This document shows positions 37,694 through 60,441 of a stretch of DNA of 64,000 nucleotides, piece after piece. The translations under genes and the position numbers were made by a program. Source of the stretch: an uncultured Lachnospiraceae bacterium (lineage in GTDB: Bacteria > Bacillota > Clostridia > Lachnospirales > Lachnospiraceae); assembly GCA_947165025.1 (NCBI GenBank), contig CAMUYQ010000002.1:62001-126000 (forward strand), written 5' to 3'. Below the pieces are notes generated by a model, which had not been told where the DNA came from, made no database searches, and saw only the letters and a program-made list of their open reading frames with translations. Within the stretch, counting starts at the first letter, position 1. Every line of letters starts with the position of its first letter.

Positions 37694-38078
37694 ACTGAAG
37701 ATCATTCTCCGTGAAAATCATACCCTGCATGAAATGCTCATCGGCGCAGTCTTTATCAACATGATACTTGCGGTCATTGCCCTGTTTGTTACCGACAGAA
37801 AGCATGCTCTTTACGCAGTTCTTATCGGGACACTGACAGTGGTCTTTTATCTGATACATATGGCGGTGACTGTTGATGATGCGCTCTGCCTTGACGAAAA
37901 GGGTGCGGCGGTTCAGCTCAGAAAGAACATGGTCATACGGTATGTGATCGTATGTATCGTTGTAGGGGTAAGCCTTTACTTTAAGATAGCCGATCCGGTA
38001 TTTCTGGTAATATCGGTGATCACGATAAAAGCGGGTGCATATCTGCAGCCGACGGTTCATAAAATAACCAAGTGGTAG
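37686..38078 (+). CDS. atpI: ATP synthase subunit I-like protein
   Basis: The 130-aa protein has four hydrophobic helices and the usual AtpI position between the AtpZ-like gene and atpB. Sequence identity in this family is low, so the call rests on topology (helices near 17-36, 42-62, 85-102, 105-122) and synteny. AtpI is thought to guide c-ring assembly. It overlaps the preceding gene by 8 nt and is followed by atpB. Confidence 0.7.
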   Translation: MNRLKIILRENHTLHEMLIGAVFINMILAVIALFVTDRKHALYAVLIGTLTVVFYLIHMAVTVDDALCLDEKGAAVQLRKNMVIRYVIVCIVVGVSLYFKIADPVFLVISVITIKAGAYLQPTVHKITKW

Positions 38079-38092
38079 GAGGAAAGATTATA

Positions 38093-38806
38093 TTGAACAG
38101 CGTCATTCTGTCAGCCGATGTCAATTTCATGATCAAAGGCATATTCTCTTATCAGATATTCGGACAGACTGTCTGGATCACGACCACGCATGTGAGCCTT
38201 CTGATAGTATTTCTTCTGTTCATCGTGTTCGGCCTCTGTGCCCATCACGTGATCGTTAATGCCGATCCTTACGCCAAGCCCGGCACATTCCAGAATATCG
38301 TGGAACTTATGGTCGAGATGCTCGACAACATGATAACCGGATGTATGGGCAAGAGTGCAAAACCTTTTCTCGGATATATCTCAACACTGTTTTCGTTCAT
38401 ACTTATCAGCAACTTCTCGGGACTTCTCGGCCTTCGTCCACCCACAGCGGATTACGGCGTGACCTTCCCTCTCGGACTTATCACGTTCGGACTGATCTTC
38501 TTTAACAAGATCAAACACCAGGGTGTCGGCGGATTCATAAAGGGACTGTGTGATCCCTGGCCGATCTGGGCACCGATCAATGTTATCGGAGATATAGCGG
38601 TTCCGGTTTCTATATCGCTCCGTCTTTTTGCAAACATACTTTCAGGAACAGTCATGATGGCACTTGTGTACGGCCTTCTTAACAGGATAGCCTGGGGCTG
38701 GCCGGGACTTCTGCATATGTACTTCGACCTGTTCTCGGGTGCGATACAGACATATGTATTCTGTATGCTGACGATGACATACGTCGCCGATGCTATTGGG
38801 GAATGA
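38093..38806 (+). CDS. atpB: ATP synthase subunit a
   Basis: The 237-aa membrane protein has the essential Arg in SISLRLFANILSGTVM and the C-terminal AIQTYVFCMLTMTYVADA. It forms the ion half-channels next to the c ring. The start is the TTG at 38093 because AGGAGGAAAG lies just before it; a GTG at 38072 precedes the ribosome site. The stop codon is the first base pair region of a structured RNA element. Confidence 0.92.
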   Translation: MNSVILSADVNFMIKGIFSYQIFGQTVWITTTHVSLLIVFLLFIVFGLCAHHVIVNADPYAKPGTFQNIVELMVEMLDNMITGCMGKSAKPFLGYISTLFSFILISNFSGLLGLRPPTADYGVTFPLGLITFGLIFFNKIKHQGVGGFIKGLCDPWPIWAPINVIGDIAVPVSISLRLFANILSGTVMMALVYGLLNRIAWGWPGLLHMYFDLFSGAIQTYVFCMLTMTYVADAIGE

Positions 38807-38900
38807 CGTGAGGTGTCTGCGAAGCAGACGGAGTCCTGACGTCACCGCGAGGCCCATTCTGCGAAGCAGAATTCTTATGGCCGAGCGTCTTTAAGGCGAC
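38804..38900 (+). ncRNA. Intercistronic structured RNA element A (atpB-atpE)
   Basis: Starting at the atpB stop, TGACGT and AGG pair with CCT and ACGTCA around a hairpin GTCTGC-GAA-GCAGAC. CACCGCGAG follows, then GCC/GGC enclosing the hairpin ATTCTGC-GAA-GCAGAAT, and CGAGCG. CGC pairs with GCG, leaving a tandem G-A/A-G internal loop in CGAG/CGAG. The same plan with different base pairs is found at 42816-42914. It is therefore a conserved fold, not a chance palindrome. Confidence 0.7.
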
Positions 38901-38947
38901 ACTCCTTAACAAGCAAATAAAATATGTTCAGAATATAAATATTATAA

Positions 38948-39217
<270 letters not shown>

Positions 39218-39252
39218 TTATTACGAAACAATAATCGAAAGGAGGCAAAAAC

Positions 39253-39797
39253 TTGGATCAGATTATTACAGCTGTGCTGCTCGAAGGCGAGCAGATGGAG
39301 CGTCTGTTTGATCTTGATTTCCAACTGCTTCATGATGCGATCATAACAGCGGTTGCCGTTTTTGTTTTATTCCTTTTTCTGTCCTATATTCTGTTCAAGC
39401 CTACGCGTGAACTGTTAAGAAAGCGCCAGGAAAGGATCCAGACGGATCTTGACAGCGCAAAGCAGGACAGGGATGAAGCGCTCTCATTGAAGGGCGAATA
39501 TGAAGCAAAGATGGCGGGAGCCCAGAAGGATGCCGATGCGATCCTTTCGGAGGCTCGCCAGAAAGCAGTCAGGAACGAGGAACAGATCGTAGCCAAAGCC
39601 AAGGACGAAGCAGCTGGCATTATCCGGCAGGCTCATAACGAGGCAGAACTGGAAAAACAGAAAGCAGCGGATGAGATCAAGACGCAGATCATCGATGTTG
39701 CGTCGCTTATGGCGGGTAAAGTCGTTGCAGCAGGTATAGACACGAACATTCAGGATTCTCTTGTTGAGGAGACCCTGAAAGAAGTAGGTGAGAGTAC

Positions 39798-39810
<13 letters not shown>
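39253..39810 (+). CDS. atpF: ATP synthase subunit b
   Basis: The 185-aa protein has a membrane helix (~33-53, IITAVAVFVLFLFLSYILF), FKPTRELLRKRQERI and a long charged helix typical of the peripheral stalk. It starts at TTG 39253 with GGAGG 7 nt upstream. The last 13 nt overlap atpH. It dimerises and ties subunit delta/alpha to the membrane. Confidence 0.92.
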
Positions 39811-41874
<2,064 letters not shown>

Positions 41875-41906
41875 ACAATATCCCCTTGAAGGGAGGGTAT
41901 CAGTTT

Positions 41907-42815
41907 ATGGCGTCGATGCGCGACATCAAAAGACGTAAAACAAGTATACAGTCCACTCAGCAGATAACAAAAGCCATGAAGCTCGTCTCAACGGTCAAGC
42001 TTCAGAGAGCCAAGGCGCGTGCGGAGCAGAGTAAGAACTACACGATGCTGATGTATGATACGATCGTATCCATTACAAGCAAGTCGGGATACATCGATCA
42101 TAAGTTTATGAATCCTAACGGCAGCAACAAAAAGGCTGTCATCCTCATCACATCAAACAGAGGACTGGCCGGCGGATACAACAGCAACATCACAAAGCTT
42201 ATCACGCAGAGCGGATGGGACACAGACAAGACTCTGATATATGCGATCGGTAAAAAGGGTCGTGACGGTGTTAAGAGAAAAGGTTTTGAGGTTGTGTACG
42301 AAAATGCGGGCATGATCGAAGAACCTGTTTATGCGGATGCCATGGAGCTTGCCGACGATCTTCTCGAGAAATATTCAAACGGGGAGATAGGCGAGATCTA
42401 TATCGCATATACGATATTTAAGAATACGGTCGTTCATGTTCCCAAGCTTCAGAAGCTGTTACCGCTCGGAGAAGAGAGCACACCGACCGAATCCGTATCG
42501 GGTAAGGAAGGCGAAGAATCTATCAGACCGAACGTCGAAGAGGAAAGTGCAAAGCGTGCACTCATGACTTATGAGCCCGATGAAGACGAGGCACTTTCAG
42601 CGATTATACCGAAGTATGTTACGAGCCTTATTTACGGTGCCCTGATCGAGGCGGTTGCAAGTGAGAACGGAGCCAGGATGCAGGCAATGGATTCAGCGAC
42701 CGACAATGCGGAGAAGATGATATCATCGCTTGAACTTCAGTATAACCGCGCAAGACAGGGAGCCATCACTCAGGAGCTCACTGAGATCATCGGCGGCGCT
42801 GAGGCACTTGGTTAA
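41907..42815 (+). CDS. atpG: ATP synthase subunit gamma
   Basis: The 302-aa protein has the N-terminal helix MASMRDIKRRKTSIQSTQQI and the C-terminal MDSATDNAEKMISSLEL with RARQGAITQELTEI. It is the rotor shaft. It is about 15-20 residues longer than usual owing to an acidic insertion (around 195-225, EESTPTESVSGKEGEE). The start at 41907 has GGGAGGG upstream. Its stop is directly followed by structured element B. Confidence 0.94.
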   Translation: MASMRDIKRRKTSIQSTQQITKAMKLVSTVKLQRAKARAEQSKNYTMLMYDTIVSITSKSGYIDHKFMNPNGSNKKAVILITSNRGLAGGYNSNITKLITQSGWDTDKTLIYAIGKKGRDGVKRKGFEVVYENAGMIEEPVYADAMELADDLLEKYSNGEIGEIYIAYTIFKNTVVHVPKLQKLLPLGEESTPTESVSGKEGEESIRPNVEEESAKRALMTYEPDEDEALSAIIPKYVTSLIYGALIEAVASENGARMQAMDSATDNAEKMISSLELQYNRARQGAITQELTEIIGGAEALG

Positions 42816-44361
<1,546 letters not shown>

Positions 44362-58764: not shown

Positions 58765-60441
58765 ATGTCGTTGATGAGCGGCCTCTTTGTTGGGGCAACA
58801 GGACTTCAGACAAGCCAGAACTCGCTGCATACAACAGCGCACAACCTTTCAAACGTCGAAACAAAAGGTTATGTTCGCCAGCAGACGCTGCATGCGGACA
58901 TGACTTATAATAATATAGCAAACGCACCCGTTTCTAAAATGCAGATAGGCCTCGGGGTTGAGTACGATATCGTACGCCAGGTCAGGGATGAATTCCTGGA
59001 CAAGTCGTATCGTAGGGAAACCGGCAGGTCTTCTTTTTATGAGATAAGCCAGGAAACAACTCAGGAGATAGAGACGCTTCTCGGAGAATTTGACGGTGTT
59101 GCATTCCAGGAATCCGTTGCCGATCTTTGGACGGCGGTCCAGGAGCTTCAGAAGGATCCGTCCAGTTCCGTAACAAAGGGTTATTTCGTAAACACATCCG
59201 CACAGTTTCTTGAAAGAGCACAGGCCGTTTACAACGGACTTTCAGATTACCAGGACAATCTTAACGCGAGAGTCAAGGAGTATGTTGACAGGATCAATGA
59301 TCTCGGTGATGAGATCCATAAGCTCAATGACATGATCCACCGCGAGGAGATTGGTGAACAGGAAGCGAACGATCTCAGGGATCGCAGGAACAAAGCTCTT
59401 GATGAACTCTCATCGCTTGCGAATATATCATATCATACGAATGCGGACGGTGGGGTTGAGGTTCTCGTTGAGGGTGTTGAGCTTGTGGCCCGTGACCGGG
59501 TATTCCATATGGATACCGTTGTTGACCAGGGAACAGGATTCTATACCCCGGTATGGCCACAGAACATGGATGCGGAAGTGTTCATCAAGAATGAGGAGAT
59601 CGCGACAGCATACAATACCGATGTAGGACAGCTCAAGGCTATCGTCCTCGCAAGAGGTGACAGAAGAGCAAACTACACTGACATGAACTATGCTACGTAT
59701 GCAAACGGAAAGTATACGTATGAAGATAAAACCACGGGAACAACTGTTGAGGAGGATGTCATCCCGACATCAAAATCAATAGTCATGAAGGTCCAGGCCG
59801 AACTCGATCAGCTTGTTCACAGTATCATGAAGGAAGTGAACAACATACTTACGGACGAGAAGGCTACGATCGATGCCGGAGGTACCCCCGAATACAATGT
59901 TGATGAGGATCTTCCGAAGGAACTTTTCGTAAGACTCGGGACTTCAAGATATGTAGAGGATGGCGGAAAGTATAAGTATGTGGCTGAGGATAAGTATCCT
60001 TCGCATGCTGATATAGACAATCTCTATACGATAGCGAACATGAAGATCAACCCGGATCTGTTAAAGACCCCGTCACTTCTGGGTAATTCGTTTGTTACGG
60101 AAGATAAGCAGGTTGACCAGCCCAAGGCAGATGCACTTGTTGATGCGTTCAATTTCAAGTTCTCAAGTCTCAACCCGGATCTAACGACGACATATGATTA
60201 CAGAGATTATTACGCAGCACTTGTCGGACAGGTCGCAACGGAGGGAAGCGTGTATTCAAGCATAGTCACGGCTCAGCAGGTGGCAACGCACAACCTTTCG
60301 GACAGCAGGGATGCCATCATGGGCGTTTCTTCAAACGAAGAACTTACCAATATGATCAAGTACCAGAACGCATACAATGCGGCTTCAAGATATATCACGG
60401 CATGCAATGACATGCTTGAGAACCTTCTGCAGAGTGTATAA
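58765..60441 (+). CDS. flgK: Flagellar hook-associated protein FlgK (copy 1)
   Basis: The 558-aa protein has the N-terminal flagellar rod/hook signature (HTTAHNLSNVETKGYVRQQT) and C-terminal MIKYQNAYNAASRYITACND with the coiled ending LENLLQSV. It is the first junction protein between hook and filament. A central variable region (~250-450) differs from standard FlgK. GGGGTGATTAC stands before the ATG. Confidence 0.92.
   Translation: MSLMSGLFVGATGLQTSQNSLHTTAHNLSNVETKGYVRQQTLHADMTYNNIANAPVSKMQIGLGVEYDIVRQVRDEFLDKSYRRETGRSSFYEISQETTQEIETLLGEFDGVAFQESVADLWTAVQELQKDPSSSVTKGYFVNTSAQFLERAQAVYNGLSDYQDNLNARVKEYVDRINDLGDEIHKLNDMIHREEIGEQEANDLRDRRNKALDELSSLANISYHTNADGGVEVLVEGVELVARDRVFHMDTVVDQGTGFYTPVWPQNMDAEVFIKNEEIATAYNTDVGQLKAIVLARGDRRANYTDMNYATYANGKYTYEDKTTGTTVEEDVIPTSKSIVMKVQAELDQLVHSIMKEVNNILTDEKATIDAGGTPEYNVDEDLPKELFVRLGTSRYVEDGGKYKYVAEDKYPSHADIDNLYTIANMKINPDLLKTPSLLGNSFVTEDKQVDQPKADALVDAFNFKFSSLNPDLTTTYDYRDYYAALVGQVATEGSVYSSIVTAQQVATHNLSDSRDAIMGVSSNEELTNMIKYQNAYNAASRYITACNDMLENLLQSV

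Follow-up and report, generated by a model that had tools for sequence, protein, structure and literature searches.

A dispersed two-hairpin repeat of Lachnospiraceae genomes, with two copies in an ATP synthase operon

Tandem clustering is a trait of REP repeats. REPs are described as 20–40 bp long (PMC3733652), occurring in many copies largely outside genes and forming hairpins in which the loop, a bulge or mismatches set one strand apart (PMC8266576, PMC3733652); their mobilisation is attributed to Y1 transposases of the TnpA-REP type (PMC8266576). Pneumococcal BOX elements are composite, modular interspersed repeats (boxA-boxB-boxC) in which the number of tandem boxB modules varies; they are predicted to form stem-loops if transcribed, and are described as apparently dormant (PMC3049150). 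Group IIC introns insert at intrinsic-terminator or attC motifs (PMC4424553).

Here we describe what looks like a previously undescribed repeat of about 90 bases, made of two hairpin modules and scattered through the genome of an uncultured Lachnospiraceae bacterium (the host) and those of its relatives. Two copies lie in the 64,000-nt stretch of the host genome that we analysed (the window). We call the repeat undescribed because we found neither an Rfam match nor relevant literature. No Rfam family matched in the window at the gathering score, and at E≤5 the region 38700–43000 gave three weak matches that all lie away from the two copies, in agreement with the original prediction, which knew of no Rfam family with this layout. 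Among the titles and opening lines of abstracts of open-licence PMC articles, there was no relevant report of such repeats in Lachnospiraceae, Roseburia, Butyrivibrio, Clostridium or Firmicutes.

The repeat resembles REPs in being short, in having many copies (36 matches in its own genome) and in being an imperfect palindrome found mainly outside genes, as its flanks show under simple ORF calls, with hairpin irregularities that tell one strand from the other. It differs in its length of about 90 nt, in its two-module build, and in its positions at tRNA ends, which the passages on REPs compared here do not mention. With BOX it shares a composite, modular design, but it has two modules rather than three, neither module is itself repeated in tandem within the units examined, and it is whole units that stand head to tail; the pneumococcal host of BOX also belongs to another family. 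Some copies follow terminator-like hairpins and others tRNAs, which recalls group IIC introns, whereas Rfam recognised no ribozyme domain in the repeat and the host genome has no match to RVT_1, the reverse transcriptase to be expected in the genome of a group II intron derivative. Like the structured RNAs of Rfam, the repeat has a covariation-supported structure on one strand; unlike the cis-regulatory RNAs among them, neither copy matches a curated model.

Both window copies lie among genes for F0F1 ATP synthase subunits a, c, gamma and beta (Table 1). A two-hairpin element starting at the atpB stop codon, and a second copy with the same tandem G-A, had been predicted; we find them at 38803–38894 and 42815–42909, each with a CGAG/CGAG tandem G-A internal loop. 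In both copies module A is an outer stem interrupted by mismatches and then a hairpin, while module B runs from CGC/GCG through the tandem G-A and a second stem to an asymmetric bulge and its hairpin. The predicted recurrence of the loops holds for hairpin B, which has a GAA loop in both copies, but not for hairpin A, where the GAA of copy 1 is replaced by GTAA in copy 2. The hairpin B stem of copy 2 contains an additional G.A mismatch. The covariance model used for scoring (R2) was built from 24 own-genome copies that include these two, and its third-best match in the window reached 11.7 bits, against 83 and 75 bits for copies 1 and 2. The junction motif CACCGCGAG has a third exact match in the window, at 59338, unrelated to the element, and with up to one mismatch it matches nine times against a chance mean of 11.5, so the motif alone is unremarkable in the window. 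The atpB product scores 101.2 bits against TIGR01131, slightly below the cut-off of 102.6, and the AGGAGG ahead of atpE falls outside copy 1.

Table 1. Repeat copies, their parts and neighbouring genes, in window coordinates.
Feature	Position	Strand	Description	Basis
Copy 1	38803..38894	+	atpB-atpE gap, overlapping atpB stop TGA 38804-38806	CM R2 83.4 bits, 2.1e-19
Module A, copy 1	38804..38844	+	outer stem TGACGT/ACGTCA + AGG/CCT around one mismatch	sequence, alignment, pair counts
Hairpin A, copy 1	38815-38829	+	GTCTGC-GAA-GCAGAC	sequence
Module B, copy 1	38846..38887	+	CGC/GCG, tandem G-A, GGCC/GGCC, asymmetric bulge, hairpin	sequence, pair counts, tandem GA tally
Tandem G-A, copy 1	38849-38850 with 38883-38884	+		sequence
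Hairpin B, copy 1	38857-38871	+	TTCTGC-GAA-GCAGAA	sequence
Copy 2	42815..42909	+	atpG-atpD gap, at atpG stop TAA 42813-42815	CM R2 74.6 bits, 3.8e-17
Module A, copy 2	42816..42858	+	hairpin ACCGC-GTAA-GCGGT at 42830-42843	sequence, CM match
Module B, copy 2	42860..42902	+	CGC/GCG, tandem G-A, GCCG/CGGC, hairpin with GAA loop	sequence, CM match
Tandem G-A, copy 2	42863-42864 with 42898-42899	+		sequence
CACCGCGAG	38843-38851 (copy 1), 42857-42865 (copy 2)	+		sequence
atpB (F0 subunit a)	38072..38806	+	stop overlapped by copy 1	NCBIfam subunit A models, best 2.2e-52
atpE (subunit c)	38963..39217	+		NCBIfam TIGR01260, 50.1 bits, cut-off 43.95
atpG (gamma)	41907..42815	+	copy 2 at stop codon	TIGR01146, 286 bits, above cut-off

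Further fragments lie next to both copies. Directly after copy 1, GGCGACACTCC (38895–38907) looks like what erosion has left of a further copy's right end. Copy 2 is followed by a GACCCGCGAAGCAA-like fragment (42910–42925), with similar ones after copies in relatives (L224, L250, L255), which may be a further module or a remnant.

Compared with shuffled sequences, copy 1 folds better (z −2.95) and copy 2 does not (z 0.05). We accept the structure because it recurs and is maintained by compensation; neither folding alone nor CACCGCGAG alone would prove anything. Across the 24 complete own-genome copies and 27 pairs, 96.1% of pair cells hold standard pairs, none of 500 shuffles reached the observed pairing, and structures slid along the alignment gave 33–41%. 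Pairing is conserved by compensation, as had been claimed, with both-sided changes in 19 of the 27 pairs. We then applied model R2 to 60 loci of seven relatives, taken from the listed, better-scoring matches, so that this sample leans towards complete copies. None of the 68 resulting matches (67 distinct rows) had been used in the model; 96.6% of their cells are paired (slid control, 37–48%), and both-sided changes occur in 23 of the 27 pairs of the distinct rows. Alignments were fitted to the structure of the model, which favours pairing; the slid controls lie far below nonetheless. One outer-stem pair is weak, being broken in 10 of 24 own-genome rows and 32 of 63 rows from the relatives.

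Two features mark one strand. The tandem G-A persists in 65 of 68 rows from the relatives, in 21 of the 24 complete own-genome rows and in 25 of 36 once partial copies are included, while the pairs flanking it vary. GNA triloops cap DNA hairpins with unusual stability. Among 102 distinct rows, the C(GNA)G form caps hairpin A in 59 and hairpin B in 81. Both the caps and the tandem G-A are strand-specific. G.T pairs fill 74 of 2601 cells (2.8%) in the repeat, against 35 of 557 pairs (6.3%) in 25 tRNAs from these loci, which leans towards single-stranded DNA rather than RNA as the folded form, in a comparison that is weak, the sequences being related. With regard to the terminal inverted repeats of MITEs, pair counts show the left arm pairing within module A and not with the right end. 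REP palindromes have a GTAG or CGTC tag tetranucleotide beside them; some copies here carry GTAG in their left arm, but this arm changes along with its partner.

The repeat is present in many copies. A pattern for the core of module B occurs at 18 places in the host genome (at least two of which, L028 and L030, are not the repeat on inspection) and its reversed form at none. Covariance searches of Lachnospiraceae genomes, with a model of six copies and then with the model of 24, supported the pairing and found copies in related genomes, as the original prediction required. In the host genome, the first model (R1) gave 37 matches at E≤1 and R2 gave its 36 at E≤0.001; head-to-tail dimers of the whole unit stand at two places. 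In the genus, 29 of 37 genomes, the host included, carry the repeat, in a patchy number that ranges from 0 to 41 copies, the highest count being that of genome G193. In the family it was found at E≤1e-4 in at least 23 of 299 genomes including the host, an undercount, since scoring was restricted to 14 candidates in each genome. The module A core, used to search named genomes, gave at least 113 stretches; among the matches listed, 63 of 80 titles say Lachnospiraceae, and the others include, for example, Roseburia, Pseudobutyrivibrio, Lachnospira, Kineothrix, Clostridium and Eubacterium. Three of these stretches (L280, L315, L343) contain tandem arrays of module A with a period of 47–49. The module A core was also seen in one viral contig (L383), and a distant blastn search with copy L020 found no match in plasmid and phage collections. 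Some copies carry inside one of their hairpins, near its loop, another small hairpin repeat of the approximate form TATCYCGTACG..GTGCGRGATGCCAYCCCGGCGAGGG (L222, at 1272–1409; L312; the atpG-atpD gap of G193, L167).

We next asked where copies sit. From 104 matches we removed one duplicate locus (L071), leaving 103, and then rows shorter than about 70 nt or repeated, leaving 96. In 18 of these a tRNA end falls −1 to 5 nt from the left end, against 0.27 expected from random intergenic positions in the same loci, whereas no right end has a tRNA end that near (0.44 expected). Six of the 18 are at the 3' ends of sense tRNAs and 12 at the 5' ends of antisense tRNAs, so that in all 18, read along the strand of the element, the tRNA or its complement lies on the 5' side. 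In the set from named genomes, counting distinct copies with at least 40 nt of left flank, a tRNA lies within 60 nt to the left of 26 of 122 copies, 21 of them at 0–5 nt, while the right side has one tRNA at 4 nt, measured from the end of module A. The two counts are not independent because some stretches (for example, L325 and L258) are common to both.

Gene ends are a second preferred site. In 33 of 96 copies (17.3 expected) the left end coincides with a sense ORF's stop codon, which often falls within the element; this excess is less striking than that at tRNA ends. Nor is the right end neutral, since 8 of 96 copies have a sense ORF beginning there where 2.0 would be expected; all ORF figures are approximate, coming from simple open-frame calls and not from gene prediction. 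In L226, L231, L232, L239 and L216 the left end holds AGGAGG, and a shortened trailing repeat stands directly before the next frame, whose ribosome-binding site it may provide.

For 95 copies we also folded the left flank. The 45 nt to the left of 39 copies away from tRNAs, ORF ends and tandem joints have a mean MFE of −9.9 kcal/mol against −6.9 kcal/mol for shuffled sequence, with several terminator-like hairpins among them. A last pair within 4 nt of the junction is hardly more frequent than in shuffled sequence in any class, being found in 23 of the 39 (shuffled fraction, 0.53) and in four of six tandem copies (0.64). Next to 32 copies at ORF ends the mean MFE is −7.6 against −7.0 kcal/mol shuffled, and a last pair this close is rarer than in shuffled sequence both there (13/32 versus 0.53) and at tRNAs (10/18 versus 0.60). 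We therefore rejected the idea that left ends as a rule follow hairpins; only part of the copies do.

These positions bear on whether the repeat acts as RNA. Copies at gene 3' ends might stabilise or delimit transcripts and be kept by selection on the RNA, with the atp copies tuning their operon. That one strand folds, with strong compensation, would suit such a role, as would the orientation of 71 of 96 copies along the local coding strand (both orientations occur) and the excess of left ends at stop codons. However, the 12 antisense copies at tRNA 5' ends do not suit it, an RNA role does not explain why it is the left end that meets both tRNA ends, G-U pairs are few, and most relatives examined lack complete atp copies. 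We read the tRNA-side polarity as a mark of insertion, not of transcription, and regard an mRNA element as unlikely.

A classic REP family moved by a RAYT (REP-associated tyrosine transposase) encoded in the same genomes appears less likely still. The imperfect stem, asymmetric bulge, specific loop and tandem clusters of the repeat recall REPs, Y1_Tnp is found in 18 of 37 genus genomes, and two of these genes score 52 bits against NCBIfam REP_Tyr_transpos, whose cut-off is 80. But a search for the Y1 transposase domain (PF01797) that was positive in 5 of 14 known genomes, taken as a control, gave no match in the host, and none was found in G193 with its 41 copies. The 20 Y1 loci retrieved, from 28 Y1 matches, contain no copy of the repeat; five contain the motif GA[AG]CCGTCCC, flanking the Y1 domain on both sides in four (L202, L204, L205, L206), where it is probably the RAYT-like genes' own REP. 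The motif is also present at two own-genome loci (L057, L058). Thus, despite its REP-like form, the repeat does not group with REP-RAYT systems: the host has no Y1 match, no copy lies at the 20 Y1 loci retrieved, and in the genus another palindrome adjoins several of the RAYT-like genes.

On the same grounds, with no host match, no linkage in the fetched loci and another palindrome beside several of the genes, we rejected a Y1 transposase as the mobiliser. RVT_1 (PF00078) matches in 15 of 37 genus genomes and in none of the host's sequences; a reverse transcriptase was likewise rejected, copy number showing no evident relation to it by eye. As to the surroundings of the RAYT-like genes, those at L199, L202, L204, L205 and L206 lie near a palindrome that differs from the present repeat and contains GAACCGTCCC, those at L204 and L206 adjoin, by eye, a butyrate-kinase-like frame, and a stretch with the same core as the GAACCGTCCC palindrome sits in the atpB-atpE gap of G303.

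Comparison between relatives shows that sites can be empty. We read the atp gaps in 30 loci, host included, from 36 genomes with a match. A complete copy is present in four of the 30 atpB-atpE gaps, one of which has two copies, and in five of the 30 atpG-atpD gaps, with a weak match in two others; by eye, the remaining gaps in close relatives hold fragments or nothing recognisable. At the host's dimer locus C15, 12 relatives were searched and both flanks placed in 10, of which nine have no copy and one (G320) a single copy; a stretch like the element's left end at one copy-free site (G323) could be a remnant. The patchy atp gaps and the mostly empty C15 locus indicate that copies come and go. 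No clear target-site duplication was visible by eye between filled and empty sites, and the left-end sequence recurs behind 18 of 103 copies, a pattern that tandem arrangement would produce as well.

In a comparison of 93 of the 103 copies (length 86–116), the nearest neighbour is in the same genome for 25, against a shuffled mean of 16.7 and maximum of 32, and mean alignment scores are 34.2 within genomes and 36.0 between them. Copies from one genome thus do not clearly resemble each other more than they resemble those of other genomes, and the signal of genome-specific amplification is only weak. Some positions are common to different species, by eye (L045/L261, L054/L214), which fits old, inherited copies.

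The suggestion that the element is a stability or processing element setting ATP synthase subunit stoichiometry, prompted by its place between atpB and atpE and by a second copy in the same operon, can hardly be upheld, and we consider it extremely improbable, since the family is genome-wide, beside tRNAs and other frames in both orientations, 26 of 30 atpB-atpE gaps lack a complete copy, orthologous operons thus showing no conservation of the kind expected of an atp cis-regulatory RNA, and the second atp copy does not precede atpE.

We conclude that the element is likely a non-coding, dispersed DNA repeat of two hairpin modules, REP- or BOX-like and folded strand-specifically, whose copies derive from polar insertion. 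On the element-bearing strand, such insertion would attach the left end 3' of the target, probably via a folded single-stranded DNA intermediate and with an enzyme acting in trans. The atp copies would be two such insertions, and any effect on atp mRNA would be secondary. Transcribed copies may also have an RNA effect; such effects are reported for other repeats (PMC3049150). We would suggest, quite tentatively, a more specific form of this dispersed-repeat reading: that these are widespread non-autonomous elements of Lachnospiraceae moved by a mechanism not yet described, neither a Y1/HUH transposase nor RVT_1 having been detected in the host. The left end would go in 3' of something folded, whether a tRNA (or its complement), a terminator or a pre-existing copy, so that the elements would mark tRNA and gene ends.

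The repeat adds a structurally well-defined family to the genomes of gut and rumen Lachnospiraceae, and it cautions against annotating single copies of a repeat as gene-specific regulatory RNAs. It also poses a puzzle: what joins a hairpin repeat this tightly, and by one and the same end, to the borders of tRNA genes on both strands. Finally, the repeat may illustrate the reuse, at gene borders, of stop codons and ribosome-binding sites that arrive by insertion.
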